The notes under the pieces are model-generated. The model ran no database searches. It had not been told where the DNA came from and saw only the letters and a list, made by a program, of their open reading frames with translations. From Actinernus sp. WN-2022 (lineage: Eukaryota > Cnidaria > Anthozoa > Actiniaria > Actinernidae), in NCBI GenBank assembly GCA_030867875.1, contig JAOWCC010000441.1, positions 405,442 through 469,441 of the forward strand: a stretch of 64,000 nucleotides of DNA, given 5' to 3'. Both the position numbers and the translations under genes were made by a program. Shown in pieces: positions 6,421-62,856 of the stretch (position 1 is the stretch's first letter; every line of letters begins with the position of its first letter).

Positions 6421-6496
6421 CAGTGGTGCCGCTGGTTGTTAGTTTGGGTTAATTTTCCTATTTCTTGTGATTCGACCGATGCTTCTCCCTGGTGAT

Positions 6497-8092: not shown

Positions 8093-8098
8093 GGTCAA

Positions 8099-12800: not shown

Positions 12801-14288
12801 TTTCGCCAGGCTGAAGTGCAGGTAGTCATGCTACCTCCAAAGGGCCACAAGGCTAACCCGACGGAGCTATTCCAAGCTATGATCCAGGCGAATGTGAAGT
12901 CCTGGAGAGCTCCCAATCAGTCATTTGACGAATGTGGGCCAAGGAACTTTAAAGAAGCACAGCAAGCCGTATCTGATGCTCTTGTAAGGCTGAGGTTTAA
13001 CACTAATGCTTTCCATGGTTGGTACGAGGCACGAGCCACCGGCCGCCATCTTCTCTGTGTCGCTGGGCCAAGGATCGCATGACGAAACGAGTCCTCAGAT
13101 GGCGTGAAAATGAAGAATCACAAGTTTTCCTTTGGCCACAGAAATTATGAGTAGCTTAACTTTTACTTACTGAGGTTTATTTCCCAGATTCAAACCATGC
13201 ATAGCTAAAAAGGTGAGATGATTTCCCTGTTTCGCAACGAACGTCAATTCGAATTGAGGCCATGTTGATTTTCGTAGAAATCACGTGATTTTAGGTTTTA
13301 CGTCATTCGAGTTTCCATATTTAGAAAGGCTGTAAAACAAAAACCGTCACATTGTTTTCGACAATAATAAAATTCCATGTATGGAATTTAATAAGGTTTT
13401 TAATAAAAAATAAATGCCGAAAAATAAGTTTGTAGTTTTTGTGTAAATGCATCAACTGTTCTGTCCAGAGTACTATATATCTATCAATGCATTACGTTAC
13501 TTTATAATTCATGTACCTTAAGAGCTATTCGTACTCTCTCCAGCTGACTCTGTTTATGTACATCACATTCCTCCATTGAATTGAATTTGACTTCAAACTC
13601 TTCTGCTCCAATCTTCACCTAACAATAATCAAAAAAATAACATTTTAACTCTTGACAACCAATTTACAACTCTGTACGAACCTCCATTCCATTCTGATGG
13701 GTCTTTTAAATTGAGTGGAAAGCCAGCTCTTTACTTCAGCTTTTTTGTAGCTCTTTCTCTTTGAGTATAGCTCAGAAAATGGCTTTCTGGCTGATGAAAA
13801 CGGCTTTTTTCCCTTCATTAGTTCCTTTCTTATAGTTTCCTTTCTACATTTGCCCTTGTAAGCAGACTTTCTAATCTCAGAATTCGAGCTTTAAGCTTCG
13901 AATTTTCTTCCTGGTGATCAACCAGCGCCCTTTGAAAATGGTTTCCTGGAGAATTAAGCCAAATGCTGTTTTGCTCTATAACTGTTACTCGAGAAACCTT
14001 CACCTTCAGACATAAAGGAGCAGAACTACTACGACAACCAACCGTTTTCTCAGATATGCCGCCAGAATACTGGCGCGATATACGTTAAAAGTGAAATATA
14101 AGACGATCAGATTAGTATTATAGGTAAAATAAGCGCCAAAATGATAAGAATGTGTTGTTTAACAACAAAAAATGAAAGAAGTTACTTATCTTTGTGCTTT
14201 GGACTCTTCCTTCTCTGACTCTCACAATATGCCAAGTCTTCTCTGCTTTATCACAAGGAATTTCGATTAAAATGAAACTTTCTGCCAT
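9890..14288 (-). CDS. multi-exon gene of an unnamed, probably mobile family
   Basis: A spliced minus-strand gene. Exon 1 starts with ATG at 14,288 (MAESFILIEIPCDKAEKTWHIVRVREGR). A coiled-coil and basic segment follows at about 13,990-13,680 (VDHQEENSKLKARILRLESLLTR, then KCRKETIRKELMKGKKPFSS) with a frameshift between the two parts. Clean exons are 13,618-13,517 (VKIGAEEFEVKFNSM), 11,235-11,095 (GKDDGDISDAAYNELKQ), about 10,926-10,734 (MPVDHGCDDIITLRFSVDGRRITKKLGSVM), 10,292-10,183 (AESHDILAECMKEIY) and 9,996-9,890 (LMCADWKFMAGLMG...LWCECSK). Most have AG/GT borders; exon 1 is followed by ATAAGT instead of GTAAGT. The FSVDGRR, CADWKF and W-C-E-C blocks recall uncharacterised cnidarian proteins with SGDGR and DWKF...CVWC motifs, which may be RNase H-like transposases. 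That relation is remembered, not searched. A Tc1-like element fills the intron between 13,517 and 11,235. Confidence 0.55.
11589..13470 (+). mobile_element. Tc1/mariner-like (IS630-type) DNA transposon with TA duplication
   Basis: The left end CTCTGGACAGAACAATTG at 11,589 is mirrored by the right end, whose reverse complement reads CTCTGGACAGAACAGTTG and ends at 13,470. The inverted repeat is about 26 bp with two mismatches. Both ends are flanked by TA (11,587-11,588 and 13,471-13,472), the duplication made by this superfamily. A subterminal palindrome ATTCCATGTATGGAA near 13,370 has a weaker partner near 11,693. The element is 1,882 bp, carries a broken transposase gene, and lies in an intron of the 9.9-14.3 kb gene. 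Confidence 0.9.
12040..13081 (+). pseudogene. DDE transposase of the Tc1/mariner-like element
   Basis: The main frame (about 12,300-13,081) encodes the catalytic domain: YFADECPVLLG (first Asp), HSYFIWDRLGRAGR (second Asp) and VMLPPKGHKANPTELFQAMI (Glu in N-P-T-E, the Tc1/IS630 signature). Upstream, in another frame, KYSPEEKTLERLAERDPYANTETTACRLLNRTGIDRR has the look of a helix-turn-helix segment with a basic linker (SGGSQRKVKK). Still further upstream a third frame reads AVLKRIESGVEVQTALGGRRSF before TAG. At least two frame breaks and an in-frame stop separate these parts, so the copy is inactive although its catalytic residues are intact. Confidence 0.85.
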
Positions 14289-15126: not shown

Positions 15127-15657
15127 CCTTTCAGGAAGGAAGGGACTTTTATTTTATTTTAAAGTTACCAGAGGCAGAATCAGAAAGGCAAACTGCACAA
15201 CTGCCATTCCATTGCGCTTGACAATAAACTCCCGGTTGAGAGGTTTAATCGAAACGGCAATTTTGTAATATAACAGCCAGTATATATAATGTTATGTCAC
15301 ACGACGTTATTGCTTTTATATGCGTAGGGAAAGCACTACAAAAACCTGCTTGTATAAGATGCAACACGGATAATGGAAATATTCAAAACGTCATACTTCA
15401 ATCTAAAGCGGGTAAACTTACGAGCCTAGGGAGAAAGAGGATCCACAATAGCATTCTGAAATCCCGCCCGATTTTAAGTAGCAATCCCAATCCCAATCCC
15501 GCTAGTTATATATATTTTCTAATTGTAATAATTAACCTTTTTCTCTAAAGTTAGGTTAATTATAAAAATCTCGAGACCCTACCTCATCAGTATAATGATT
15601 TCGCGAATCCTAGCGAAGGTCGGCGAACTCGAAGTAATACGTGTACAGTGATGGTAG
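15127..15657. other. no gene recognised; target region of the 13 kb element
   Basis: Non-coding. The last 9 bp (TGATGGTAG, 15,649-15,657) are the left copy of the target duplication of the large element. Confidence 0.5.
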
Positions 15658-15800
15658 TAGCCTGCGAACAGGCTCTTGGGGGCACTTTGGGGAGAAGAAG
15701 AGAGGGAGAAGAAAAAAATGAGAGGGGGGGAGGGGGGGGGGGGAGGAGGAGGGAAAAAGGGAGGGAGAGCCTGCACGGATCCCATACAAATTTGAATTCC
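15658..15800 (+). repeat. left terminal inverted repeat of the 13 kb element
   Basis: Starts TAGCCTGCGAACAGGC, in which GCCTG and CAGGC can pair around CGAA. A polypurine tract rich in G follows, then GAGCCTGC near the inner end and CCCATACAAATTTGAATTCC as the last shared bases. The inner GAGCCT is complementary to the AGGCTC just inside the terminal hairpin. Confidence 0.9.
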
Positions 15801-17556
15801 GCCCCCTCAATGAGACACCAAATCTAAGCCAATCAGCGCTCGCTAGAATTATGACGTTTATCTGTTTGGCGCGAGGCTGGATGGTGCGAAGTTTCGGCGC
15901 GAAACAGCTAACACACCTAGAAGAGCTGGATGTATAACCAAAATACTCCAGAAAAAATATGTAGTTCAAGGAAATCCAGAAAGGAAAGCATAAATCAATA
16001 TTGTCGGTGTTGCCATGTGTCTTTGAAAGTTCAATATGGAGATACATGGAAGTCTGTTTCAACAGAAAACTTATTTTTGCCATCAAAACAACGAGGAATC
16101 GAGGTCAAAGCTCTATCATGCTTGTTGGAAATCGTAGGAATTTCCCCCGAAAAGACTCCAGATTTTTCAGAAAGGTTATGCAAACCCTGTGCAACGAAAA
16201 TTCGGAAAACTTCCGAAGGCTTTGCTTATCTTAAGAAAACGATAAATGCTGAAAATCCAAAGTGTGGCCATGACAAAGAGAACCTCCCCACAACACCAGA
16301 TCGTAAACGGACGAAGAGAACTCTCCCAACTACGATTACTCCAGAGCGACGTCAGAATGCGAGGAAAATAAGTAAGATCAATTCAAACGATAAAAGAAAC
16401 GACGACGCCCTTTTCAATATCGACGATCTTATCGAAAGTGACAGTAACAAAACAAGAGTTAAAGTCTTAATACTATGGCCAAATGGCGACACATCGGTTC
16501 GTATTCCCTCAGAAGAAGAAAGTAACTCGATTCTCCTGATCAAAAACATTGCTCTCAAGAATTGGAAACCCGTTGCTAGAACAATTTTCAAACATGAAGA
16601 CCTCAAACCTGAGCTTCTTGATGCAATATGGCAGGCCATGGATGCCGAATTCAAGGGATATTGTTCTTCCGATACAGTATTAAAAGGTACCAAACCAGAA
16701 GAACTGATTGCATTCTCCAACAATGTATTTTTAAGGGAAATTGCAGTGAGGTGCCCAATTTGGTGTGCATTAAAGGTGCTTGTGGCATTCCCGTAGCTTC
16801 TGTACCGGACGCGTTTTCTAGGAATTCAATCGCTCTCGCTAGTTCAGTTGCAGCCCGTGTTCGCAACAAGAGTTTGTCAGCCCTGGCGTACAGAATTTCT
16901 AGCATTATCTTTCACAGTGGAACATCCCATCAGGACATTATTCGCTTAAATAGGATGGGAGTGTGTATGTCCCCCGACATGATTCTGGGTCTCCAACGTA
17001 GCTTAGGAGAGAACTTTGACGCTAAGGTGCTTTGTTGGAAAAAAGAACTTGAGGAGAAACAACCAGATCTTGAAATGTTGGCATTACTGCATGAAGTACA
17101 GGAAAAACAACTCCCAAAGCTAGAGGAAGACGACATGGATTTGGATGTTTCGTTGGACATAACTGAGGAAACGCTGAAAGAGTACGTTCACTACAACCAA
17201 GAAGCGTCTTCAAACTTGATTCAAGTAATGAAAGCAGCTAAGAAAAGGAGCAATGTACACGAGTTCACCGATGAGGCGATTAACGTTGCTATGAAGAAAT
17301 ACAGTACAGGATCAAGGTATCCCTTCTACAAGTACGTACATGTATAAACTATAATTAATATTTTGCACACATAGTCAATGATGTAGTAAGTTAAGTTAAT
17401 TAATTAACGGAAACAAATATTCATAGCAAAATATAGTAACATTGTTTTGCCTCTGGCCTGAGAACCCATCATGAGGAATCTTTAGGGCTATACCCAGGAT
17501 AATGGTTATCAGTAGAGAAATTGAAACAGGAGGCAACAGTGTTTCACAGGCAGTTA

Positions 17557-17664
17557 TAGCCTGCGAACAGGCTCTTTTTTTGGGGGGGGGGAGGGGAAGA
17601 AGAAGGGGGGAGAGAAGACCCCTCCCTTCTTCCCTCCTCCCACCAAGAGCCTGTTCGCAGGCTA
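17557..17664. mobile_element. 108 bp MITE, same termini as the 13 kb element
   Basis: Ends TAGCCTGCGAACAGGCTC and GAGCCTGTTCGCAGGCTA, with G-rich and C-rich arms between. A perfect 9 bp target duplication AGGCAGTTA flanks it (17,548-17,556 and 17,665-17,673). It lies in intron 1 of the DUF6589-type gene. Confidence 0.95.
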
Positions 17665-19594
17665 AGGCAGTTACGAGATCGATAGTTGGTTAAAATGTCA
17701 TAAATGAAGAAACATTTGGGCAAAACAGGAGGCTACTTTTTAATCCAAAAGAAAATTGTATTCAGAGTTCTTTCAGGAGCCATTCTCAAACGTTCTGTCT
17801 GAATATATACAAATTATGTCACACCTTTTCATAGGTATGGCATAATTTGTCATTATGTTGTTACATAATTATATATGTATGTTAATAAAATTTATTCATA
17901 TTACAAAACAATCCTTGCTGTTGACTCTTTTCAATTCTTGGTGTGTTGAAAATGTGATAATAATATTATTTTTTTGATTATTGTTTTGTATCTATATAAG
18001 GTTGGTTGGTGACAATATAGACCATCAAATTTATGCAAGAATACAGTCAAAAGATTAAAACAACCAGTCAATACACTGGACTCATCAATATGCCATAAGA
18101 GACAGTGTGGTTGATCCATTGCTTAACATCACTAAACCCCAGAAGAAGATTGAAGAATTGCAACTGATAGACCTTCTTCCAACTCCAGATGTAAAATGCA
18201 GATTGAAGCATTCCTTAAAAGTCCTAGTGAGCCGTGTAGTGACAAAGTACATTACAGCATTCAAGTCATTAAGGAGAGTTGTTGTTCATCACATTCCCCA
18301 TCCATATACCAAAGAAGCTACACAGAAATCTGAAATAGTGAGTAATTTAAATCTTCAGGTACACTTAATTCCGTTTTTTTTTTCAAGGTGCCAATTGGCT
18401 CCTACTTTGAAAAGAAAATGCTAGGGCTTCTCATACTCATTAATAATTAACGATGTACGTAGCCAAACAGAGGTCTCGATTTGTACCACGTGTAGTACTT
18501 TGAAACCTGGTCAAAGTACTACCCAAAGTACTTTGAAATCTTTTTTCCAGTCCAAGGACTGGAAACTATGAATTATTTTTTTATAGTGGTAAACACCTTA
18601 AACAAAGGGAGGTCTCGCGATTGATCACCGACTTCCCCAAGTGCTAAATAATAACAATGTACAATACCTGTCTTGATGCATACAGATTGTCTCTCCAATG
18701 TGGGACCAGTTTTTTGCACTCTGTTCTTACACTGCGCATGTCCGTGACGCCAACTATAGCGCCAAACTGCAATGTTTTCATCAAATTTCACGCCAGGTTG
18801 TAAATACATACTCCCACGAGAACAAGCGCAATTCCGTCTTTTCATTAACAATGGAATGTTTGATTACTTAAGTCAAACAAAGCAAGTAAAACCTACAAGC
18901 CTGAAACATCGAAACTCTAAATGCATGAAGTTTTAAAATTGTTGTGTTGTTTATCCCACAACCACCAAACAATAAGTCATTTCAAGGCCTCCAATTCGGA
19001 CTGGATGGCATTTCAAAGCTGCGCCTCGGACTGGAACTAATTGCGCAGACTTTGAAAATGCCGTCCAGTCCTCATTGTCGGCCTTGAAACATTACTTCAG
19101 TCACCAATTTGGGAAGTGGAAATGATTTGGTTGCCAACACAGAAAATTTGCCAGGCAACTTATCAGTCACAATTTTGGTCCCTAGTGCTAATTACTGTTA
19201 TATTCCCTTTTGTCTCCTTCTGGCTCTTTAATATTGTAACTAGGTGCATCTATTTATTACTATTTAGTGTTGCCTTGGTATGGAATTTCTCAACCCCAAT
19301 ATAGCTGGAGAAATGGCTCAATTACTGATGTCAAACCAGAATAAGTATGTCCCACAGCCAGGGGGGGAAGCCGGACAAGTCTCTGCTCAAATACCATTTC
19401 ATGGTGACCAGCTATTTGAAGAGCGTGCACGACATGTGAAATGGACATTTCAGGATGCAGATTGTGATGTTGATCGTTTTGAGGGACTTAAACCAGAATT
19501 TGCAGATTGGCATGCAAAAGTAACACTGTATCAGGTACTATATGTAAAAGCATAAATAAATTTATTCATTTAAAATTCCTGTGTACTTACAAAT

Positions 19595-19681
19595 GGGCCT
19601 GCCAACAGGCTCTTGGGGAGGGGGAGGGGGCTCTTGGGGGTGAGGACCCCCCCCCCCCCCCAAGAACCTGTTCGCAGGCTA
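19595..19681. mobile_element. 87 bp MITE, same family, diverged left end
   Basis: Left end GGGCCTGCCAACAGGCTCTT, right end GAACCTGTTCGCAGGCTA. The flanks CTTACAAAT (19,586-19,594) and ATTGCAAAT (19,682-19,690) agree at 7 of 9 positions and are read as an aged 9 bp duplication. It lies directly downstream of exon 3 of the DUF6589-type gene. Confidence 0.8.
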
Positions 19682-21995
19682 ATTGCAAATACCCCAGCCC
19701 CTCACTAATAAAATGATTTCATATACATCAATAAAAAATGCAGAGATTAAATTACCAATGGTTGATGACACAAAATTTGAAACAAACATGTAAACAACTC
19801 ATTGTGCTAAACTAATTTTTTTTATGAACTAGTCTGGGGCTATGGTAATTGAACAATATTTACATGTATCTCCATACTGCTATGAAAGAAAACTCTGTGA
19901 TCTCAATCATGTATCTCATGTAATGTATCTCATGTACATGTATCTCACACTGAAGCATTTGTACATCAATTTATGCATGACAACTTTTTAGGGATTATTA
20001 ATGATATTTCATGTGCACATGGGTATACATCAATGGCCGATAATAATAATCTTTAACAGATGGAGTATGAGATGTTTTACAAACCTGACTCATGTGCTGA
20101 GCTTGGAACATCTAAAGCTAGCATGAACAGGACTAGAAAGACCAATGCAGCACCAGGTCCAAAGAAGAAGTATAATGAATATAAAGACTTTCACAGCTGT
20201 GAAGTGGAGGCCCACATATGTGCTTCTTTCATGACAATGGCTGGGATGTCTAAACCTGATGGTACATAATATATTTTACAATACTCTTGCTTATCCATAC
20301 ATTATTGAATAGCATAAAAATTAGTAGCTCACTTATTGTGATCAACATGTATTTCTATTAGCCATTTCTTAAAAGAAATAATATATTAGGACTGGGACCT
20401 TGAAGTAGGTAAAAATATTTCAATTAAAAAAACATCACAAGTCAAAATACTCTGCAGAAATTTTAACAATGTCTGCTGCAAATACATAAAAATTAGCATG
20501 TTTACTGGGTTTGGCAATGTTTGGATCAGTATTAATGAGGTGACAAGCTTTCAAAATTCACAAAAAAAAGAGAGCTCAATGTAATTTTATATTTTTTTAG
20601 GGTGGGGGGTGCCCCATACCAAGCTTTCTTGTATTGATGATTTTCAAAAGTTGTTATTGAGTTCTTATTTACTCAATGAACTTAAAATGTGGTAAACATA
20701 CTACATGTACCTTCCATGTGATCTTTCATATGGTTCACTTTAAACATTTAAAATAATTTACACATGCTCATGTCTATTTAGTCCTGTATCAGTTTACTAA
20801 ATAACAACTGTTAAAAATTAATGGTTAAGAAATATTAATACCAGTAACTTGATATTATTAAACCTCTATTTTACCCTTTACAAATAGATAAGCCCTCATT
20901 CAGTCTCCCAGACAGCACAGCAAACAACCAAACAAAGGGGAAATGGCTTCTTGATATTTGTGAATCCTTCATTGATAAGTACATGTTCGATGTTGGGGAT
21001 ACAGATTGTCTAGTTCAGCAAACACACCAGCTGCAACTTGCATCTCTTGGTAATTACAAGTGCAGAATAGAAGGATGTGACAAAGTCTATGTTTACCATT
21101 CTGCACGAGTTAGGTATTATTAAATAAATATATGATCAATATTAATACCATGTAATAGCAGGGCACAAAAACATTTTTTGTCCAAATAGTCTAGGACTGG
21201 TGGATTTTGCTATCAGCTGGCGGATACCATCTTTAGTTTTTGATGCTTCTTTGATGGACAATAAAAATATTTTAGTTTAAGAAAAAACATAATGAAATTA
21301 TACACAAAAATGTGACTCCAGCATTCTGGCTAATATACCAGTTCCAACATGCCCAAAAGGCATTCATTGCAGTGATTTTCACACCGCCCTTTCAGTATTG
21401 TTGTCTCAACGTAGAAGTTGTGTTTTGGTGAACGTCAATCATATTAATTCCACGTTCTTCTCATTGGTCAACCTGTTTATCTGTGACAAAATTGTTTATT
21501 GCCGGTAGACAAATTAATTGCTTTGCTTCTAGAAAATAAGCAACAAAAACTGATATTGACTCCAGATTTTAGTAAAGAATATCTATTCTTGGACTTAATT
21601 TAATATCAAATAGAACTGCCAAGTAGAAATAACTCATTGGTCCTTTTACAAGACTTGGAAGAACTCATTTTGCACCACAGATGTTTTTTGCATCCTGGAT
21701 GTATATGTTAACATTCAATAATTGATTTAAAGAATTTAATTGTTTGGTAAATAAACACATTTTACACTGATAATAATTTATTGTCAACAGTCCTGAATTA
21801 ACTGCCCATGGCAAAAAAGATGAGCGTCAAGGTCAACTGAGAGACGAATATGGCTATTACTATTGCCGATGTGACTGTGGGAATGTGTTTAGTACCAAAT
21901 CAACAAGGAACAGGTGATTGTTAAAGGGCATATAAGCCCTGCAGGTATTACGCTATTACATGATCTCAAACAGGGAATATTTTTTTAGTGTCATT

Positions 21996-22250
21996 GGTTG
22001 GGGAGCTGTGGTTAAGCGATTTGTCTCTCACCTCTGTGGCCCAGGTTCGATTCCTGATCACGGCACGATATGTGAGTTGAGTTTATTGGTATCTTGCCCT
22101 TGCTCCGAGGGTTTTTTCGGGTTCTCCTGTTTTCCTCCCTCCACAAAATCCAACATGCTAAATTCCACATTAAATTCCAATTCGATCTGTGGATAATAAT
22201 AATAACAACAACAATGATAATAATAAATATTTAACCAACCATCAATGAAA
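21996..22250 (+). mobile_element. tRNA-derived SINE
   Basis: GGGGAGCTGTGGTTAAGCG fits an RNA polymerase III A box and GGTTCGATTCC (22,044-22,054) is a perfect B box, about 40 bp apart as in a tRNA gene. The body continues with a conserved-looking tail domain (GTGAGTTGAGTTTATTGG, CTCCGAGGG, TTTTCCTCCCTCC) and ends in an ATA/ACA-rich simple repeat. This matches a SINE family that I associate with cnidarians. It lies in an intron of the DUF6589-type gene. Confidence 0.8.
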
Positions 22251-23432
22251 CAAGTCCCATCTAGATTTAAATAAGTCTGAGGCGGTATGACTTTGAAATG
22301 TTAAGTTTTTATACTAAAAAAAAATCAAAATGCCACTTCCAGGGTCACACAACAATGAAAACGGTAAGAACATGATACTTAATATTGGCCACTTCAGAAG
22401 TGAAACACAAGGACTGGGTTGAGTTGGTAAAGTTGATTTAATTATAATCTAATTAAGAAATGACAAGCATCCCTGCAATCCATACCTGTAAACGTCTCTT
22501 ATTTTTGAAAGCTCACCATATGGTAACAATGAAACATAACCAAAATTGGTAAACATATTAATTTTGATGTGATCTTTCTTGTGATGGAGTTCATTTCTTA
22601 ATTAGATTATAATTAAATTGACTTTGCAATCTCAACCCAGTCCTTCTTTCATTTCTAAAGTGGCCAATTAATTGATATTCTTACTTCCACTAGGCATGAG
22701 AAAAAAATACACCCAGACTTCATTGTACCTGTTGAAGAAACTACAGAAAGTACTCCAAAGGTTCCATCAGATTACCTGTACAACTACCACTGTGGAAAAC
22801 TTAAATTTGGTCTCATTCTATTGGAATTTAATGATGCAGTGCAAGAAGGTGATGGACAAAGACTTAATGATCTCTACAAGTTGTCGCTGTTACTTTACAA
22901 AAGTGGTGGACACTATAAGTATGCCTATGTTGTTCTTCTTTATCTTGTTAACATTTCTGCACTGTACACAGAATTTGGAGCTTTTCAGCTCAAATGGAAT
23001 CGCTTCTACAACAAATATGGTTTGCTTGGAAGAAGTATTTCCCTTGATCTAAAGAAAGAACAGCAAAATAAAATTTTGAAGAGTCTCTGGCGAGCACTTG
23101 GGCCAAACTTAAACCAGGACAATGCATCACGCGTGGCTAAGACATTGGAGCTGCTTGAACTGCTTATCCATTCAGTGGACAGTGACTGTGAATTATTAGA
23201 ACGACAGGGTAAAAGATCAGATGGTAACCCTGAGGAGCCTGTTCTACAGATCACTTCAGACTTAATGGAAATTAAAGCATTTCATTTAATGCCAGGAAGA
23301 GAGGGGCATCAGTCATTCCCTCAGTTTCCAAGCAGCCTGATCAAGCTAGATTACAGGGACCTTCACAAATGGATGACAGAGAAGATCCAGCTGTGGGGGT
23401 CAATACATGATAGAGTACATGTATCTCACTGA

Positions 23433-24060
23433 TCAGTGTCATTGGAAAGTTGTCAAGTTCTTGTTACTCTGCATAGACTGTAAAAAGAATACCAGCAACA
23501 GCCCTATTGTTCTTTGCGAATATGCCTTGCCATGGATCTGCCACATTATTCCTACTGTCGTTGGCTACTTTAAGCAATGTGTTCTGCTTGAAAATGACAT
23601 GCAGTGATGGTAGACTTTTCACAAACCACAGGCAAAAGCTCCTTTCTCTGCACTCTTCTTTATCGACTGTGCCAGGAATACTGTGTATAAATTTACAAAC
23701 CTAGGTTTGAATATTAATCTAGAATCTTGGGTTTTGCAATACTTTGCGAGTGATTTGCATTTTTTGTGTGAAATATAAGGTGTTGATTAGAAATATCACA
23801 CAAGATTTCAGCCAATGGGAATTTAGCTGAACATTTAGTTTGGTCATTGAATTCTCAAAGAACAATAGGGCTGTGGCAGGTATTTTTTTCTCTTCTCAGT
23901 CTCACCACTCCCCCCACAAATGCCTGGCTTTGTACACTAGCCACAATACAGAGTTTAGCTAACCTATGAAGATGTAAGTGAAATGTGTACATACCTGTAT
24001 GATTCAATTTTTCCACTGGTTTATTTTTTGGTATTTTCACATACATGTATTTTGTTCAAA
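23433..24060. other. no gene recognised
   Basis: Downstream of the DUF6589-type stop codon. The segment AACAGCCCTATTGTTCTTTG at about 23,495 recurs in inverted form at about 23,858-23,874 (AAAGAACAATAGGGCTGT), which could mark a small inverted-repeat element. No coding region. Confidence 0.4.
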
Positions 24061-24203
24061 ATTGAAGGGCTGTGTGCAATAAGGGTATAACAAGTGACTC
24101 CTGATTGTATTATAAATTCTCCTTCAAATACGTTGTTTTCTAAGGGAGAATTTAGAATGTGATCAGGAGTCACCTATGCCCTTGTTGCACACAGCCCTTC
24201 AAT
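24061..24203. mobile_element. 143 bp MITE, ATTGAAGGGCTGTGTGCAA ends
   Basis: The left arm ATTGAAGGGCTGTGTGCAA...GTGACTCCTGAT and the right arm ATCAGGAGTCAC...TTGCACACAGCCCTTCAAT are inverted copies over about 55 bp, leaving a short central loop. No coding capacity, and no clear target duplication. Confidence 0.85.
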
Positions 24204-24772
24204 TTTAACATGTTGGGTAATTAATAAGCTGGGTAATATGAATTTGTACAAAGAATTTGTAATATAACGTATAAGCACGGTCTGGGCAAAATTTGGCTGC
24301 TAAGTGACAGTTACTGTCAGACCAGTAACGGATTACAAAAGCCTTCCTTAATAGGGGCAAGGGTATCAAAAGATACGAATGTGTCACTAGCTTACCAAAC
24401 TTAGAATAAGCAACCACAATTTAATGATTGAAAAAGGCACAAGCCCATACATCACCCCAAAGAGAGGAAGTGCCGTTTTTGCACCTTGAGAAAAAAGATG
24501 AAAAGCATTTCCTTACACAATGTGACTTCTATGATGATTTAAAAAGTCTACGGTACTTGCTAAATACTTAAGAGAAAAGCATAATCTGCAGTTTCAAAAG
24601 CTAAATACATGTACAAAAAGGCAATTTATGCTTCTGATAGATCCTGCAAGAAAATTAATTACAACTATTTATAATTACATCCATGACTGATTCCAGAAAG
24701 GAAAAAGGGCACTACCTCAAATCAAAAAGAATTAGTATTACCAAATCAGCATTCAACAAGAGCAATTTATTA

Positions 24773-24882
24773 TAGCCTGCAAACAGGCTCTTGGGAGAGA
24801 GGAAGAGGGGTGAGGGAAGGAAGTCTTCCCTCCCACCTCTTCTCGCCCCCCCCCCCCCCCCCCCCCCCCCAGAGCCTGGCTA
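24773..24882. mobile_element. 110 bp MITE, same family, clipped right terminus
   Basis: Left end TAGCCTGCAAACAGGCTCTT. The right end reads AGAGCCTGGCTA, lacking about seven bases of the usual terminal hairpin. A perfect 9 bp duplication AATTTATTA flanks it (24,764-24,772 and 24,883-24,891). It contains a run of about 25 C. Confidence 0.9.
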
Positions 24883-24999
24883 AATTTATTATTATCTTTA
24901 AGTATTTCTTGTACAATAATGGGATGACACTGATGTACATATGTAAGCATAACCTTGCAAGGTGCCAATAAACACCTGTCTGTCAATACATGTATGTGC

Positions 25000-25475
25000 T
25001 AGCTCTTGGGGGAGGGGGGGGGGGGGGGAGGGGGCAGGGGTCAAGAGTACAATAACAATGACATCAGTACCCTAAAGTGAGAAGCAATGGCGAGTATTTC
25101 GAAAAGTACACTAGATAGTTACACTTTCGTCAAGATTTAGGCATTCTTTCGTTTTAAAAGACAAAATTATAGAGAAAGGCAATAAACGGTTTGCTAGATG
25201 GATCAGATATTCTTGCTTTACTTCCGACAGGTTATGGCAAGAGTTTAATTTTTCTATTACTGGTTCTTGTGAGCAAAGCCAAGAGAGGAATGGTGACTTC
25301 AGTCCTCATCATTTGTCCCTGAAACCATCATTGATGACCAAGTCGAAGCCATTAAGCACTCAGGATTAAAGCTTGTTCTATTTCAGATGTAACTGCAGAA
25401 GAACTCAAATCTGGTGTATTTCAGCTTATCTTCGGATCAGAGGTAGTTCTCAACAATGTTGACAACGTTATCGGT
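25000..25475 (+). pseudogene. decayed inverted copy of helicase exon 1
   Basis: Read on the plus strand this is a copy of the right end of the 13 kb element: part of the G-rich terminal repeat (AGCTCTTGGGGGAGG), the leader, and the first helicase exon up to about GACAACGTTATC. Recognisable parts include ATCTTGC.TTACTTCCGACAGG (Walker A region) and TGCAGAAGAACTCAAATCTGG. It has many frameshifts and is clearly older than the gene at 25,482-28,527. It abuts that gene's stop codon and points the opposite way. Confidence 0.85.
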
Positions 25476-25481
25476 TACACA

Positions 25482-28400
25482 TTATAATAAGTCATCTTCA
25501 ACATCAACAGAATAATCAGAATCAGATTCAAAATTGTAATGTTCCTGTGGTGAAGATAATTGTGTTGCTTCAAGTTCCCCTCTTCCAAACACTTCCACCA
25601 TAGCATCAATATTTTGAATGTCTTCAAAAATTTCATGAAATACTTCTAATATCTTCAAGGCATGTTGAATTGAAAACACTGGTAGATGTTCAGTGATGTC
25701 CTTCACAGTAAAAATTGTGTGGGCTTTTTCAACAAGGTTGCTCACCATTTGGTTGCCATAATCCAAAGAGGCATTCACATTTAACAGATTGAGCATGGGA
25801 AGTAGTGAATTACTAACCATTTCATGCAATGCACTCTGCAGGTCTTCTTTATCAGAGGGCGATACTGGTCTACTCATTGTTGGCTGCGCTGGCGAAGCCT
25901 CAACCAATGGGTCGACTTCAAACACAGGAGGCACTATGCTACATTCCCCACTTCCTTGACACTTGCATACTTTAGCACAGTTCTTACAGCAACCATGTCC
26001 TGGTTTTAATGACTCTATGTTTGAATCAAATGGTTTGTAGGCTGCAATCCTGTAGCAGTCAGTAGTTTTTACAAAGTCTTTCACATCTTGTTCACAAAGC
26101 CCAAGCTGTTGGCCATAATATACAATGATAACATCAGCAGGCATGTTATCCCGACCAGCACGCCCAGACTCTTGATGATAATCCAACATGTTGCATGGAG
26201 GTCCCCAGTGAATGATGTATCTGACATCTGGGAAGTTTACTCCCATACTAAGGGCAGCACTAGCAATTGCTAGTCTCTTCTTTCCATCACTCTTAAAGGA
26301 CTTAACAAGTCGTTCTTTGTACTTAGGCAGAGTGAAAGAATGGTATATGCCAATTATACAGTTTTCTGAAGACTGATTATCTTGAGGGACATATGCTTCC
26401 TTCCCCAGTTTCAACAAAATAAAATTAAAAAGTGCAGCAATGTCATTGAGAGTTCCATTGCAAAACATAATGGTTTTAGGTGTTTCTGCACGTTTGTCCT
26501 TGAGCACATTTATGAGCCATGAGATGTTATCATAAATCTGTTCTCTTTTGCATTTCATCACTGATATTCTTAAATTTTGCCTGTTGGGACTAAGAAACAA
26601 CGACAATGGCTTATTCAGGGCAAGTTCAGATATAATCGTCTTCTGTGTCTGTCTATCTGCAGTTCCAGTTAGTGCAAGCACTGGGGTTCCTGAAATTGTC
26701 ACAAAGAGTCATACTTGTATTACAGTTATCACTGACAGTTAAACCATAATTATTAGAGCTCCAACATTGATGTTGACATTTTAACATTTTCAGCCTCAGT
26801 CAAAACTGAGGGTAAATATCTAACTGAAATTAAGTTAAGAAATGTGTACAGTCGAACCTGTTATGGACACCTCTATAATAAAGACACCTCCTTAATATGA
26901 ACAGTTCTCTCAGTCCCAGCAAAATCCCCATACATTTTCTATTAACATACCTCTATGTTATGACACCTATTAAACAGACAATGGACACTAAAACTTGGCT
27001 GCAGAAAGGAATATCCATGTAAAGTTACCCTCTTTATTATGGACAATGTAATTCTGTAATGACCATTCTGTGTAAAACTTTTGAATAATCTTCTGAATAC
27101 AATGGCAGTCGGGTTCTTTGACTAGACTACACTGTCATGCTAGATTAGACTATATTTTCCCTATCTGATACATCATTTTTATTTCTTGACTAATCTGGAG
27201 CATGGGTCCTCGTTACAATATGTTTCAACTCCCTTATGTTTCTGGTACAGTATTGTATTAAAATTTATTTCGATAAAGCTAAAGAAAGTAAAGCAGAGGA
27301 ATTTGATAATTTGTGGTATGAAATACTGTACAATTATTGTAAATGGAACATTTAAAATGACATCATATAAGAGGCCTCTATAATATGGACATCTCTATAA
27401 TATGGACACTTGGCTCTGTCCCTTTGGTGTTCTTACTTATAATCAACTGTAGTTATATTACATGTACATGTACTTGATGTCATACTTATTTTTTTAAATT
27501 GAATCACATAATTCTATTTACTGCATGATTTGGTACATGCATACTTTTGTTTATATTTTGCCAATTAATAAATAGCATGCTTGCTGGCTATTCATGATTG
27601 CACTCTGAATCAGTAAATCAGCATATGACTTCACAAAAGCACCGAAAGTAGGGTAAAATACCTTTTTTGCAGAATGATCGCAACATGGAAAGCCTGGAGA
27701 ATGCTTCACGAAATGGTAACTTACTTTTGTCTTGGGACCTGTACATGTACAATGACACGTATTAAAGGCAATGGTTATATACAAATATATATATATGTAT
27801 ATTAAGCTAGCATGACATACATGTAAACAGCACTTTTTCTGAGGTACAACACAGACTTTTAATACCTGTAAACAGTATTTAAAAACATAAATATATACAC
27901 AAAGTGGCTATTAGTAGGACAGCCATACAATCTTGTAATTTCTATTGGATTAAAATTATTACTAGTAGTAGTGCTCGCACGAATGGAAATCAATATTTGG
28001 ATCGGTGTACACGTGTCATGTACTTCAATATATATCAGCGCGACGCTTAAACCTTACCTTTTTCCAGTCCATGTCTCAACGGTATGTGACTCGTCAATAA
28101 CAATTGCTACCAAATTGTCACTGATAACGTTGTCCACGTTGTTCAGCACGAGCTCGGCTGATCCGAAGATGAGCTGAAACACACCAGATTTGAGTTCTTC
28201 TGCTGTTACATCTGAAATAGAACAAGCTTCAATCCCGAGCGCTTTGGCTTCTTCAACTTGGTCATCGATGATGGCTTTCAGGGGACAAATTACGAGAACT
28301 GAAGTCGGCATTCCTCTCTCGGCTTTGCTCACAAGAACCAGTAATTGAAAAATTAAACTCTTGCCATAACCTGTCGGAAGTACAGCAAGAATATCTGATC

Positions 28401-28527
28401 CATCCAACAAACCGTTTATCGCCTTTCTCTGTTCGTCTTTTAAAACGAAAGAACGCCTAAATCTTGACGAAAGTGTATCCAATATACTTTTCAAAATACT
28501 CTCCCTTGAGCTTTCGCCGGTCGCCAT
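25482..28527 (-). CDS. RecQ-like DNA helicase of the 13 kb element
   Basis: Three exons: 28,527-28,058, 27,723-27,662 and 26,689-25,482, with GT-AG borders and matching phases, giving about 579 residues with no stop or frameshift. The ATG (MATGESSRESIL) lies 93 bp inside the right terminal repeat. Superfamily 2 motifs appear in order: LPTGYGKSLIF (I, Walker A), VIDESHTVETW (II, DESH instead of the usual DEAH), LALTGTAD (III), KTIMFCNG (IV), SAALSMGVNFPDVRYIIHWGPP (V) and YHQESGRAGRD (VI). A cysteine cluster CCKNCAKVCKCQGSGEC fits the RecQ zinc-binding region. No HRDC domain is visible; the tail ends in acidic DSDYSVDVEDDLL. RecQ enzymes unwind DNA 3' to 5'. Here it may help excision or gap repair of the transposon, which is an inference. 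The intact frame suggests a young or active copy. Confidence 0.9.
26849..27449. mobile_element. pogo/Tigger-like non-autonomous element in helicase intron 2
   Basis: The left end CAGTCGAACCTGTTATGGACACC, shown by its first bases CAGTCGAACC, and the diverged right end ATCAACTG are flanked by TA at 26,847-26,848 and 27,450-27,451. Inside, TATGGACACCTCTATAAT-like words recur at both ends. It resembles the TA-inserting element at 55,535-55,994. The right end is poorly preserved. Confidence 0.6.
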
Positions 28528-28619
28528 ATTGGATTATTGCTTCTTCTCACTTTAGGGTACTGACGTCATTGTCATTGTACTCTCGACCAATAGGAATTTG
28601 CGTCGATAAATTCAACGCA

Positions 28620-28762
28620 GGAATTCAAATTTGTATGGGATCCGTGCAGGCTCTCCCTCCCTTTTTCCCTCCTCCTCCCCTCCCCCCCTCCCCCCCTCTC
28701 ATTTTTTTCTTCTCCCTCTCTTCTTCTCCCCAAAGTGCCCCCAAGAGCCTGTTCGCAGGCTA
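28620..28762 (-). repeat. right terminal inverted repeat of the 13 kb element
   Basis: Reverse complement of 15,658-15,800, ending GTTCGCAGGCTA. Followed directly by TGATGGTAG (28,763-28,771), the right copy of the 9 bp target duplication. Confidence 0.9.
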
Positions 28763-28771
28763 TGATGGTAG

Positions 28772-42695: not shown

Positions 42696-44551
42696 AAAAT
42701 AGATATATCGGAAGCTGGCGGTCCGTGTTATCGAGCGAGATTTATTCTGTCAAGTTGTGCTCTATTGCAGTTGATGAGGCACACGTTATTAAGCAATGGT
42801 AAGTGGCATAAACTTCAAGGTTTGGTATTTTAGAGCGACAAAATCTATGTAAGATTATTTTGAAAGAGAATCATGATCTTCAATTTATTGAACTTCATGA
42901 TCTTAGCTAGCTACATTTGTTTGGAAGTACTTTTCCTTCTGAGCTGTTTATAATTATACTGTTAGTCTAAATCAGCTGAACAAGGAGAACAGCATATTTA
43001 TGTTTTTTTTAAGGGGGACTTCAAATACCACCAATATGGCAGCATTCCGTGAGACATACTCTGAACTTCATGAACTCAGGTCTTTGACCAATGTAAACAT
43101 TATTGTTTTGACTGCCACAGCCACATCAGAGACCAGGAAAACAATAATGGATGTTCTATTAATGGCAAACCCACATATCATTTCTGAAAGTCCGAACAAG
43201 ACAAATCTTGCTTACTCTGTGCACTACATACCCATTGATAAGAGACTGGAGGAGTATTTTCAGTGGTTAGTTGATGAAATACTGATACACAGACAGAACA
43301 CTTCTCGCACAATAATTTACTGCCTATAAAACAATGTGGACTATTATACTCTACACTGAGAGTTTTGCTTGGAAAGAACCTCTATCTTGATGATAATCCT
43401 AGAAATGTTGTACTTGAAATGTTGCACTCATGTACTCCAGAAGCCAATAAGGAAGCAATACTCCAAGAATTTCAAAACCAGGACTCTGGATTACGAATAT
43501 TAATTGCAACCATCGTATTTGGCATGGGTGTCGACTGTAAAGGCGTTTGTCGTATCATTCATTTCGGCCCATCCAAAAATCTTGAGGCTTACATACAAGA
43601 AACAGGACGTACAGGGAGAGATGGGAAACAAAGTGTAGCTTTCATCATTTATCAAGGACTGATGCTGAATCATGTAGACAAACACATGAAAAACTATGTG
43701 AAAACCAAAGCATGCAGGCGAAATGCGCTTTTACAGAATTTTGATAATTATTGCTCTCACTTAAGTGTGATCACACCAGTGCATTTGTGCTGTGATAATT
43801 GTGCAGAATTTACAAGATTCCCTGGAAATTCTGACAGCAAACAAGGTCTGCCTACCATGCACACCAGAGTTGTGACCCAAGAGCACCTTGAGGATCTACA
43901 GAAGCATTTGACAGATTACCACAAGTTACTTGTGATGAAGTTGATATCAAAGTCCAAAAACAATCAACTAAAAACTCTGACTCATCCACAGTTTCTACTT
44001 GGATTTTCAGAAGTTCAAATCACTCAGGCACTAGATAGTTGTGAGGTGATCTTTACACTTCAGGGCCGGGTTGTTCAAAGCCCGATTAGTGCTAATCCAG
44101 GGTTAATTTCCATGACAACCAATAGGTTTTGTGCAGAGTTAATCCAGGATTAACACTAATCGGGCTTTGAACAACCCGGCCCAGGACATTTTAGATAAAG
44201 TAGAGATATGGGACTTGAAGCATGCATGCATGCAAGATTCTTGAAATGGTAAGTAAGGTCTTTGGGGATGTTTCAGAGATTTACTATGCATGTATAAGTG
44301 AAATATTATCTGGTGAACCTAATGAATTCGATATGGCAGATTGTTATGGAGAATGGGATAACCTTGTTCAAGATGATTCCCTTCTTGAACTTGCTTTAGA
44401 GAATTTGTCTATTTCTCAGCTAGAGAGTTCAGATAGTGCACTTGAGGAGTATTTGAATGTTGAAGTTCCTGGATGTACTGGACAACCACTCATTTCACAC
44501 AATGTAATTGACTTTTTCATTTATTTGCCAGTAGTAACTACTGAGAAATAA
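42696..44551 (+). pseudogene. RecQ-like helicase, second copy, decayed
   Basis: Exon 42,696-42,798 reads RYIGSWRSVLSSEIYSVKLCSIAVDEAHVIKQW (motif II, here a standard DEAH), spliced by GTAAGT to 43,014 onward: TNMAAFRETYSELHELRSL, IVLTATATSETRK (III), SRTIIYC, LLGKNLYLDDNP, LIATIVFGMGVDCKGVCRIIHFGP (V), YIQETGRTGRDG (VI) and a cysteine pair VHLCCDNC. No Walker A exon was found upstream. A frame break and stop at 43,327-43,329 separate motifs III and V, and a MITE at 44,064 interrupts the C-terminal part, which resumes as DILDKVEIWDLKHACKILEMVSKVFGD. The C-terminal part aligns with the helicase at 25,482-28,527 (IFTVKDITEH...HALKILEVFHEIFEDI). It converges on a DUF6589-type gene at 45,366-49,118, like the pair in the 13 kb element. 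Confidence 0.85.
44064..44181. mobile_element. 118 bp MITE inserted in helicase coding sequence
   Basis: Ends GGCCGGGTTGTTCAAAGCCC and its inverse GGGCTTTGAACAACCCGGCC, with inner arms CGATTAGTG.TAATCC. It is flanked by CAG on both sides (44,061-44,063 and 44,182-44,184), and removing it with one CAG restores the frame IFTLQ-DILDKVEIW. This gives a 3 bp target duplication with good support from the coding sequence. Confidence 0.9.
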
Positions 44552-44989
44552 TATTTCAGTTCTAGTACAAACAGAAAGTGTTGTGTATTAACACTCACAA
44601 TCATTGATTTCTGTTACCTATGTACATGTACTAGAAATTGTGGCTGTCTTTGTGCTGTGTTCTCTGCCCCTCTTAACTGTACAATTTAGTACATGTACTT
44701 AGGGATAATGAATTATTGTTCCCATACTTATAGTTCAAATGAAACAAATGAATGCAAACAAAAACACTCAAGGCATTCTATATAGTAAATGATCAATCAA
44801 ATTATTTTCCTATATGTAGACATGACTATGGTTGTAGTTACACTAGCTCTAAGTTTTCACTTCAGCGTGATTGCTTACAATGTACGTGTATGCCGTCAGT
44901 AAAGTAAGATTCTAGAATTTGAGACGAGCATGACACAGTTGCACACCTTTTTCTAGAGTGAATGAATGATATTGTTAACCCAAAGTCCC
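44552..44989. other. no gene recognised
   Basis: AT-rich sequence between the two convergent genes of the second module. Scattered GTACATGTAC words. Confidence 0.4.
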
Positions 44990-45345: not shown

Positions 45346-47471
45346 TTGACAAGGTTAGCTTGAAACTAATTAACGTGCCCTGTTGCCACGTTGAATGTTC
45401 TCTTTGTGCTTATTAATCCACTGGTACAAGGCTGACATTTCCAAGTTTTTGAAAGGGTCTCTTTCAAAGTCAGAGAAACAGAGAAGTCAGAGAAACCTGG
45501 TTGACTTGTGAATATATCTGCTGAAACTGCTCTCTTGATCAATTCATTAAGGTCGCCTACTTCACAACTTTTTGTATGCTTACCAGACCTCTTAATACGG
45601 TGCAGACCCTGATCAAAGTTGTTCAGCATAGACCTTACATCATTTTCTGATTGGCAGATCCGCCTCACTGCTTTTTCAGTCACATTGGGTCCAAGGTTCT
45701 TGATACTTGTCTTTATGAAGCGGTTGCTGTGTTCCACTTCCAGGTCATGTGGAATGTTATTTCCAATTCCACCATTCGTGTTGACACTTCGATTGCAAAC
45801 ACATCGCTCACTGTCCCTGGAAGACAGAAGGGCTTCTACAAGAAATGCCTGGTAGAGGCACTCTATATTTGGTGCTGCCCTGGCCATCAGCTTTACAATA
45901 TAACAACACATACTTATATTGTCTCATCAACCTCGAACCATCTCCTTCTTTGATAGAATCTAAAAAATTCTGGAAAAGCAAACCATCAGCAAGCAAGGCA
46001 CAGTTATAACTGTACACATCATCAGTGTTACTCTTGCACTTGATGCTGGTTGACTTCGAAGGCTTTGAATATGATGATTGCTTCTCAGCAACACTGCCAG
46101 CTGGAACTTCTGGATGTGGATTGTGTGTGGACTCATGCCTCCTCCTACTTGCACCATCATACTTAAGTGACACCTGGCACCCAGGAAATCGACACAGGAA
46201 TATTCCATCTGCTGTACGTGGCTGTTGATCTTGAACATCTTGAATCTCCTGATTTGTCAAGATACTGTCAAGGAGGTGGTTGACATAATCATCAGAAAAA
46301 ACACATTTGTCAACGATTAGTGATGCTGCCTTGTGTAAGTATTCCAACTAAGACTGTTTGCTCTGTGTTGATATGTCATCAGGCAAGGGATATTTCGTTG
46401 GACAGCTTTGTTTATCAATAAATCCAAGCACAGAGAAAGATGCAGTGATTACTCTGGCTTTGATTACAATTGCCAGGAAATCTCTGTCAGCACAATAAGC
46501 TGAGTGGGGTTCTGCTGTAACATTTCTGCGGTTGATGAGTGCACGGTCAGAACTCAAAGTGCACTTATCAACCTCTGACTTTGCAGAGAAGAACCGCTTG
46601 TAGATGAGCTGTAAAAAATAATTAAGCACTAATTAGTAATGCATGTAGCAATGATGAAACAATAGAAACATCACTATTTAAAAATAGTACTGTTTCACAT
46701 ACAATTATGTATTGTTTGCACTCAAGGCTGTGAGTGGCAATATATAAAGCAGCTAGTGCCATTCCCCATGTTCATATATACTGTCACAATGAAGTTGTAT
46801 TTGGTTATTAGTATATTTATTTACACCTGTTAGCCAAAACTTCATCCTTTTGCAAAATAGTAAAAAGGAATTAATTAGCAATGAGCCAGAGTTCAGCTAA
46901 AGTGCATTTCGTTTGTTTCTTTAATTCACTCCTTTTAACAAAATTTACTATTTTGTAAAAGGAGAACGTTTCTGCAAACAGGTGTAAATGTAAAGCACAT
47001 TTGGGCATTTTTTTCAACAAATCACAGTTTCTGATACTTACAGACAACATTTTAACTCCAGCATGCCAGTCACCGATTTGCAGGTTGAAGCCTTCGAGAC
47101 GATCTTCTGGAGTATACCCATTGGACACTGATGATATGAGATTCACTGCTCTCTCTATTGATAGCTGATCTCCTGCAATGATCTGATTATCAAAGGCACC
47201 TTCTGTGGTTTTGGGAATATATGACTGAAGCTGTTGGAGAATGGCAACCATATCCTCATTTACATTTTCATTCTTAAATATTGTTCCCAGTTGAACCTGC
47301 AAGTGATACAAATACAAAACAAAAGTCTGGATCATTCATTGTTGATAACTTTGTTCATTATTGTTATGTACATGTGTATGTATATTATATTGCTTTATTT
47401 TTCTCTCTCTCTTTCTCTTTCTCTTTCTTTCTCTCTTTCCGTATTTCTTTCATCAGGAGCTCATTACCATG

Positions 47472-47779
47472 CAGGAGTGTCCATATGCACTATACCCGTG
47501 AGTCAGCGTATGGCCGGTTTGAGCTATTTTTAGAACATGTTTCCTGGTTAACTGCCTTCTGACTCAGCTGCGATCGTGCATATGCTTGCCATAATTATCG
47601 AGATTAAGAATGATCTATTGTACTTTGAGGTGATTTTACTAACGCTGCATTGTCCTGACTATGGTTTGAGTGGATTCCCAAAGTGTGGGCACATGAACTC
47701 CTGTGAGATCTGTTCTAAATATAGCTCAATCCAGTCATACGCTGACTCACAGACCTAGTATGGGAGATGGACACTCCTG
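47472..47779. mobile_element. 308 bp MITE with about 68 bp inverted repeats
   Basis: The left arm CAGGAGTGTCCAT...GTGAGTCAGCGTATG...TTGAGCTAT and the right arm ATAGCTCAA...CATACGCTGACTCAC...ATGGACACTCCTG mirror each other. No coding capacity. Lies just upstream of exon 47,296-47,042, in the preceding intron. Confidence 0.85.
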
Positions 47780-48011
47780 GATAAAAATCGTACAGGGTAT
47801 AATTTTTTTCCAGGAAAACCTATGGGGTATGGGATTTTTTAATGAACTATGTAACAGGATATGAAAAATTCAGGTCAAAACTCATACATTTTTTATTTAT
47901 TTTTGGAAAATATCCGACGGGGTTCGAAACCCGGTACTCCCCTTAAATAATGACCGGTCCCTGATGGGCTCCTGCTTTCATTCATTCCCAAGTGTTGTGA
48001 ACTTAGTATAG

Positions 48012-48146
48012 GTAATCATACGGTTTCGAGTGCAATTTTGGATTAATTTGCACAAGTTGGTTTTTCAAAGAGTATCAAAATTACACGAGCCTGCAAAACA
48101 CACATGTGAATTAATCCTAAATTGCATAAGAAAACCATATGATTAC
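48012..48146. mobile_element. 135 bp MITE
   Basis: The left arm GTAATCATACGGTTT..TGCAATTTTGGATTAATTTG is mirrored by AATTAATCCTAAATTGCATAAG..AACCATATGATTAC. Same intron as the previous MITE. Confidence 0.75.
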
Positions 48147-48318
48147 TTATTAATATACATGAAAAAATTTACAAACAAATAATCTTTACTATCCTTCATT
48201 TTAAGTCGCGCCCTGGTACAAAAGCAGCTTTGAGCGCACGCTCTTTGCTCGAAAATAGAGTAATGGTTGCATCAGCAGCACATGCTAGCTAAAATTGAAA
48301 GCTTTTCACTCAAATCAC

Positions 48319-48400
48319 TAGCCTGTTCCAGGCTCTCAGATAGTGTGAAAGGGGCAAAAGAAAATGCAAGATGAAAAGAAAGAAGAGGGAGACTGGGGAG
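48319..48400. mobile_element. solitary element end, TAGCCTG-hairpin type
   Basis: TAGCCTGTTCCAGGCTCTCA, in which GCCTG and CAGGC can pair, is followed by a purine-rich stretch (GAAAGAAGAGGGAGACTGGGG). This is the architecture of the 13 kb element's terminus, but no matching opposite end was found within reach. Confidence 0.5.
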
Positions 48401-49183
48401 AGATTACACTTTTTTGCACTCAATTATATTTGAACTGCACTGCTCTTAGCCAATCAGAATAGAGAATGTTTTTCATGCATATTATTATAATGGTTAACAT
48501 TTTAAAATCTTTTTTTGCTGTATATACCTTAACAGATTTTTCTGACATTTCCTTTGAGAACTTGTGGGGAATGTGATAAATGCATGCATCTTTCAGTGGG
48601 GCATACACATCAAAATAGTCAACCAAAATTCTTGACACCAATACAGTATAATTGTATCTTTGTCTCAGTTGATCAATGGCACTTGGGAGGAATTTCATGT
48701 TAGATACTGTGGATAACACTTCTTTTGGTGCCTCAGTTGGAAGCAGGTTTCCAGAAACTCTATTTGTGAACATGTTGTGGTTCACCCAGTGAATGTCTCT
48801 ATTCTGTTTTGAAGCTGTCATGTTTTTCCTGTGGATTTCTAAATCAATGTTATCAAATGCAATGGTGAATCCAGGATGACAGCTCTTTTGATGTACTTGT
48901 AGGATTTCTTTGGCCTTGTGTGTTTCATTGGGGGTTGAGGCTAAACTATGATTTGTGACACCACTACTTAGGGCTTTTGTTTTCACAGACTCACTGGAAA
49001 TGTCTTCCTTTGCAGTCTTGAGAATCATATCAAAATTATCTCCAAGTACATCCAATTTTGATAATGCCACTTTGTTACAGCATGATACTTTCAGTTTAGA
49101 CAAGCGGTCAAGAGCAGACTATGAAAATAAACAATACAACACAATTTAGTATATATATATATATAGCTGTTCCATACCGGATG

Positions 49184-62582: not shown

Positions 62583-62856
62583 TAGCCTGCTTGCAGGCGG
62601 TGGAGGGTGCTTTTTCGCGCAGCAAACGGATCATCGCCGCCATATTGGCCGAGCGTGATTGAGACCTGGGATCGAATGACAAATGGAGGGGGGTGGGGGA
62701 GAACAAGCAGATCTGAAAGACCGCCTGCACGAAAGCCCCTGGTTTCTGAGTACAAAACTCAGATCCCGTCCACCAGCGGACGGGACTCGTGATTGGTTAA
62801 GCGGCTGTCAAAGAAACAATGTCGTGATAAAATCGTCTGGTGTGACAAAAATAAAA

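Follow-up and report, generated by a model that had tools for sequence, protein, structure and literature searches.

The 64-kb stretch of DNA analysed here (from contig JAOWCC010000441.1; hereafter the window, in whose positions the element coordinates are given) contains, at 15658-28762, a pair of converging genes, one encoding a DUF6589 protein and the other a RecQ-like helicase. They are enclosed by terminal inverted repeats (TIRs), which are abutted on the outside by a target-site duplication (TSD):

15649..15657, no strand: left TSD, TGATGGTAG (flank comparison)
15658..15800, plus strand: left TIR, first bases TAGCCTGCGAACAGGCTC, the outermost bases forming a small palindrome (arm comparison)
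15930..17331, plus strand: DUF6589 exon 1, with a ZAD-like N-terminal zinc finger; frame broken in the window copy (copy comparison; zf-AD sub-threshold in a relative only)
18001..18337, plus strand: DUF6589 exon 2, with (G)DN(I)D, the first of the conserved acid motifs; the window copy has a premature stop here (copy comparison, motif alignment)
19268..19534, plus strand: DUF6589 exon 3, with the second conserved acid motif, GDQL..ER, plus DWHA (motif comparison)
20060..20261, plus strand: DUF6589 exon 4 (copy comparison)
20888..21113, plus strand: DUF6589 exon 5, with the first C2H2-like finger of an insert (copy comparison)
21791..21913, plus strand: DUF6589 exon 6, with the second finger (copy comparison)
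22694..23432, plus strand: DUF6589 exon 7, with the candidate third acid, EGDG.R; Pfam DUF6589 E 3.7e-14 (Pfam, motif comparison)
25482..26689, minus strand: helicase exon 3, with Helicase_C, a cysteine cluster and the C-terminal tail (Pfam, copy comparison)
27662..27738, minus strand: helicase exon 2 (copy comparison)
28058..28527, minus strand: helicase exon 1, with the DEAD domain and the GKS and DESH motifs (Pfam, copy comparison)
28620..28762, minus strand: right TIR (arm comparison)
28763..28771, no strand: right TSD, TGATGGTAG (flank comparison)

The element spans 13.1 kb: its TIR arms are each 143 nt long and 99% complementary, its termini start with TA, and the 9-mer TGATGGTAG directly abuts both arms on the outside, giving a perfect 9-bp TSD. 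The outermost 17 bases, TAGCCTGCGAACAGGCT, occur eight times in the window at up to three mismatches, against 0.02 expected; four of these occurrences are exact, two have one mismatch and two have three. Seven of the eight fall within the element, its two termini included; apart from the termini, these mark nested miniature inverted-repeat transposable elements (MITEs). Both genes start close to a TIR, the gaps being 129 bases between the left TIR and the DUF6589 start (15930), and 92 bases between the right TIR and the helicase start (28527), in agreement with a preliminary description of this DNA, which had the two genes starting within 130 bp of a TIR and converging.

The DUF6589 gene comprises seven exons with GT...AG intron borders. 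Two lesions disrupt it in the window copy: exon 1 has a short deletion that shifts the frame, and exon 2 has a premature stop. Neither is present in two further copies of the element on contigs C1615 and C685; in the C685 copy the gene is open and encodes 1099 amino acids. The helicase gene of the window is intact: its three exons contain no internal stop and encode 584 amino acids, as does the open gene of the C685 copy. The preliminary description had paired a DUF6589-type gene with an intact RecQ-like helicase; the latter stands, whereas the former has to be corrected to a damaged gene in this particular copy. Within the helicase, Pfam matches the DEAD and Helicase_C domains, and the closest relatives of solved structure are bacterial RecQ and the Bloom syndrome protein (BLM). 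DUF6589 is listed by Pfam as being of unknown function; the profile (PF20231) covers residues 545-1037 of the relative P0001 from Paramuricea (E 5.5e-33), in which zf-AD and zf-C2H2 give sub-threshold hints only. The closest named relatives of the helicase are anthozoan, as are the named DUF6589 relatives that were retrieved, which makes an anthozoan host probable.

A search with the left TIR through the genome to which the window belongs (1.39 Gb in 1772 contigs; 40 of 180 candidates scored) gave at least 45 matches. Two of the loci, C1615:17556890-17570203 and C685:109118515-109131894, lie on other contigs and are likewise full-length copies. BLAST aligns them to the window copy at about 98% identity (99.0% over gap-free columns), and they are 99.8% identical to each other, with TIR ends that have 93-98% identity to the left TIR of the window. 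Each is flanked by a perfect 9-bp TSD of its own (CGGCACCTG in the C1615 copy and ACTTGAAGC in the C685 copy), such that all three full-length copies, on three contigs, combine this duplication with both genes. An assembly join, which would have undone the preliminary description, is therefore excluded as the source of the structure in the window, and the claim of a 13.1-kb unit that moved as a whole, with 143 bp TIRs and a 9 bp duplication, is borne out by the arms, the flanks and the copies with TSDs of their own: window 15658-28762 is a genuine DNA transposon that has been active recently and has two genes.

The TSDs were counted over the three full-length units and the loci fetched around TIR matches, 10 of the 45 matches lying outside those loci. 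Places with one end or no end (L016, L017, L021/L044, L025, L028, L029, L041 and L042) were excluded, as was L035, where the left flank is N. Sixteen elements of this family (family 1) have both ends recognized: the three full-length copies, three nested MITEs and ten short elements, the deletion derivatives and MITEs carrying the same ends as the full-length element. A perfect 9-bp TSD flanks 15 of the 16, and a TSD of another length none, where the denominator is read from the lists of recognized ends and the listing shows near-perfect duplications only; the sole element without a TSD is a decayed nested MITE (19595-19681). The target 9-mers are variable and follow no fixed sequence. When the same 15 insertions were compared at shifted positions, 8 or 9 matching bases were seen in none of 1530 comparisons, the maximum being 7.

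The full-length copies have decayed to different extents: both genes are open in the C685 copy, only the helicase in the window copy, and neither in the C1615 copy. Owing to the damage to the window DUF6589 gene and to both C1615 genes, these two copies can now be mobile only in trans. That damage, together with the existence of many short derivatives, would be consistent with the unit being a large passenger with genuine ends and duplications, moved by machinery encoded elsewhere. We regard this as very improbable, given the two open genes of the C685 copy and the lower divergence of the DUF6589 exons than of non-coding positions. The latter was assessed by Fisher test with gaps, low complexity and nested repeats masked (the unmasked version gave a larger contrast, and the masked one is used here). 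Between the window and C685 copies, 9 of 3230 positions differ in the DUF6589 exons (0.28%) and 6 of 1685 in the helicase exons (0.36%), as against 59 of 6534 elsewhere (0.90%), corresponding to exon deficits with p 2.5e-4 and p 0.02, respectively. For the window and C1615 copies, the DUF6589 deficit has p 1.2e-4, whereas between C1615 and C685 the differing positions are too few to tell (p 0.56 and 1). The substitution deficit in exons is clear for DUF6589.

Four internal-deletion derivatives (L013, L036, L037 and L045; 1.15-1.47 kb) retain an open frame of 138-162 amino acids that holds the ZAD-like N-terminus only. In keeping their ends and a truncated frame for a DNA-binding-like part they resemble the KP deletion derivative of the P element, which is a repressor; these short ZAD-only frames show no sign of selection.

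The gene pair extends well beyond family 1. A search of the same genome with PF20231, in which matches were made exon by exon (102 of 648 candidates scored, the last of them reaching the cut-off only with its neighbours), gave at least 104 matches counted by exon, whereas none was found in 14 control genomes. From these, eight were hand-picked for spread over contigs and scores, and the 5 kb lying 3' of each was inspected: in seven, a RecQ-like helicase converges on the DUF6589 gene from the opposite strand. With flanks of 1.5 kb only, the end of a converging helicase is already visible at two of ten other loci (L049 and L052). By comparison, across 17 control loci (67 kb, chosen around TIRs and MITEs and not at random), the sole helicase match is a piece within the deletion derivative L013. 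These counts support the suggestion, made in the preliminary description, that many cnidarian DUF6589 and RecQ-like genes are transposon genes.

A second family is represented by C235:23289561-23306328 and C685:25466419-25483166, which are 99.7-99.97% identical over the stretches compared. These elements start with TACCCTGGGTTCCAGAGG and finish with CCTCTGGAATCCAGGGTA (in short form TACCCTGG...CCAGGGTA), and they carry a DUF6589 gene and a converging helicase. By exon, their DUF6589 protein has 24-40% identity to P0001/P0125, with a 963-bp central domain, located by profile search, outside the sequence compared. The TSDs, GGGTGGCAC and GTAACATGT, are exactly 9 bp in both copies. In families 1 and 2 alike, the ends have TA(G/C)CCTG and then the remaining half of a small palindrome. 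Hence, the search for other full-length units with 9 bp duplications and both genes, as proposed in the preliminary description, was successful within this genome for 3/3 units of family 1 and for 2/2 of those fetched from family 2. A third family is apparent from the comparison of C1706:80058627 with C398:38560550, where the homology gives out within a satellite array at one border and at a different repeat at the opposite one; additionally, the copy L067/L068 (C398:38552550-38568596) is embedded in tandem repeats, each about 150-180 bp long.

The recurrence of the same two genes, in convergent orientation, in far-diverged families disfavours a capture of host genes. It bears in particular on the reading of the unit as a MuDR/MULE-type element, in which a MULE (Mutator-like element) transposase would move captured host genes. 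MuDR/MULE elements have long TIRs and TSDs of about 9 bp, and in both respects the window element resembles them. However, a MULE transposase domain was not found by Pfam in the window pieces or relatives scanned, the recurrent convergent pair is not what capture would predict, and the DUF6589 exons are conserved against the non-coding parts; this reading is highly unlikely.

What, then, is the DUF6589 protein? A scan with strict patterns was made of ten DUF6589-holding stretches, drawn from an older pair in the window, family 2 and further locus groups, some of which end before the last exon. The GDQL..ER type is present in eight of the ten and DWH in all of them, whereas a plausible (G or F)DN.D is present in five, with a doubtful LDNFN in two more. 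All three acid motifs are present in the family-1 relatives and in the older window pair. Such an arrangement would be expected of a DDD/E transposase in which an insert separates the second acid from the third. Most likely, the protein is such a transposase, cutting and joining DNA: its ZAD-like N-terminal finger may recognize the ends, and the catalytic core acids would be those in (G)DN.D, GDQL..ER and EGDG.R, with the C2H2-like-finger insert between the last two. Cutting at the TA-starting termini and insertion with a 9-base stagger would give rise to the 9-bp duplication, and we infer a cut-and-paste rather than a copy-out process. The RecQ-like helicase would be a dedicated helper from the same element, with the opening of the ends, or the restoration of the gap and donor site, as its most likely job.

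Among described transposons, one lineage has several of these features. By the title of the paper by Kojima (Mob DNA 2020, 11:15), reportedly the one on AcademH, this lineage is 'found in animals and fungi'. The window element shares with AcademH an element-encoded helicase (DEAD plus Helicase_C; RecQ-like, 584 amino acids) and a 9-bp TSD (in 15/16 family-1 and 2/2 family-2 elements), and its host is probably an animal. In excerpts from PMC10045372, the Academ lineage AcademH carries a helicase and makes TSDs of 9 or 10 bp, its sister lineage AcademX encodes a nuclease and makes TSDs of 3 or 4 bp, and the TSD lengths are related to the encoded helicase or nuclease. A passage of PMC10799480 treats AcademH, along with KolobokH, as a source of helicase domains in fungi, and one in PMC12005156 lists Academ-1 among the DNA repeats of three coral genomes. 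The view of the preliminary description that no described superfamily has this gene pair is thus probably wrong. We assign a probability of roughly 80% to the element being an AcademH-type DNA transposon, AcademH having been compared by description.

Several observations weigh against this assignment and the associated role of DUF6589, beginning with the descriptive nature of the likeness to AcademH. The DUF6589/helicase elements, at 13-17 kb, are far longer than the 5.6 kb given, in an excerpt of PMC10294476, as the mean length of 100 curated bivalve Academ elements. In the strict motif scan, GDQL..ER is lacking in two of the ten stretches and the third acid, EGDG, in nine (some of the ten end early). 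AlphaFold models of two Paramuricea DUF6589 proteins, made with different alignments, are poor (mean pLDDT, the predicted local distance difference test score, of 48 and 49), and a search of solved structures with a profile from the DUF6589 alignment found no transposase and no RNase H fold. With respect to the helicase, its exon deficit between the window and C1615 copies has p 0.09, and the exon signal is weak because its introns are also slow, with 5/1162 and 4/1162 positions differing (0.43 and 0.34%). Moreover, one of the eight sampled neighbourhoods (L058) has no helicase match in its 5 kb, nor any open reading frame of more than 156 amino acids.

The length of the elements also bears on a different view, namely, that they form a separate superfamily of helicase-assisted transposons, with a DUF6589 transposase unrelated to Academ and with the helicase and 9-bp TSD acquired independently. 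Such a superfamily would be characterized by its TA(G/C)CCTG palindromic ends and exact 9-bp stagger, and its many diverged lineages would be present in this genome and, probably, in anthozoans at large. Consistent with it, none of the window pieces and relatives scanned has a transposase domain known to Pfam, and our literature search found no paper on DUF6589 (PF20231 appears only in one unrelated paper) and no passage linking DUF6589 to Academ. Nevertheless, two independent origins of a helicase-bearing animal transposon with a TSD of 9 or 10 bp, as the excerpts describe AcademH, would be a coincidence, and we consider this view unlikely. A DUF6589 scan of viral and prokaryote contigs found no relative, and our literature search for the terminal motif gave nothing relevant.

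Other known systems are further removed. Kolobok elements have TTAA as their TSD, whereas the TSDs of the window family are variable 9-mers; KolobokH, or another RecQ-bearing Kolobok, is, therefore, an extremely unlikely identity for the element. There is a likeness, in that KolobokH and Kolobok-1_CCri are DNA transposons with a RecQ helicase, which in the red-alga Kolobok lies on the complementary strand, but KolobokH is restricted to fungi, both according to excerpts of PMC9587614. AcademX, with its nuclease and TSD of 3 or 4 bp in the source excerpted above, is ruled out by the 9-bp TSD, and no nuclease domain was found by Pfam in the six window pieces scanned, where the element has a helicase instead. 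Also eliminated, by the presence of TIRs and a TSD, is a Helitron origin. Helitrons have neither.

For the AcademH-type reading, our literature search, within its reach, met no earlier proposal that DUF6589 is the transposase. This apparently new assignment, together with the evidence from within one genome and the convergent gene layout, is what is added here. It provides a testable identity for Pfam DUF6589 as the transposase of a helicase-bearing transposon, and can explain the abundance of DUF6589 and RecQ-like helicases in this genome. In gene-family studies, both kinds of gene should be masked as transposon genes. Indeed, P0127 from Desmophyllum is named 'Translation initiation factor' and P0018 from Dendronephthya 'mediator of RNA polymerase II transcription subunit 34-like', and both are likely to be misannotated transposon genes. 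Additionally, the recent C685 copy, with both genes open, offers a workable system for the role of a helicase in DNA transposition. For two further relatives, P0015 (helicase) and P0141 (DUF6589), the longest contig on record has the same length, 136140 bases, and the pair may lie together there too.

Within the element, there are also nested repeats, and elsewhere in the window an older converging pair:

17557..17664, no strand: nested MITE with the same ends as the element and its own 9-bp TSD, AGGCAGTTA (end and flank comparison)
19595..19681, no strand: nested MITE with decayed ends and no TSD recognized (end-motif scan)
24773..24880, no strand: third nested MITE, right end decayed in the window copy (copy comparison)
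25039..25479 (within 25002-25480), plus strand: inverted 0.44-kb piece of a related element, corresponding to its right end, with the GA-rich end and a helicase exon 1 fragment (inverted-repeat comparison)
43365..44153, plus strand: C-terminal part of the helicase of the older pair, converging with the DUF6589 pieces (window scan)
45366..48878, minus strand: diverged DUF6589 pieces of the older pair, with FDNID, GDQLSIER, GDWHA and EGDG (window scan, motifs)

In the C685 and C1615 copies, the third nested MITE has recognizable ends and a 9-bp TSD, AATTTATTA, and the inverted right-end fragment is common to all three full-length copies. By its motifs, the older pair (42700-49200) groups with C1706:80058627 and C398:38560550 in one family; no ends were found for it.

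At the window edge, 62683-63360 encodes the N-terminal part (DEAD domain) of another RecQ-like helicase, perhaps from a third element. A 1.6-kb element at 38371-39965 has 167-bp TIRs (95%), and its ends, of the form TA(A/G)ACTGCGAACAGTC, resemble the terminal motif of family 1; its flanks have only ATGCAG of the 9 positions in common. Ordinary transposon remains are present at 12309-13082, where there is a DDE_3 match below the cut-off, and at 4999-8098, where a LINE-like (long interspersed nuclear element) open frame, with Exo_endo_phos at 4999-6363, adjoins a further long frame.

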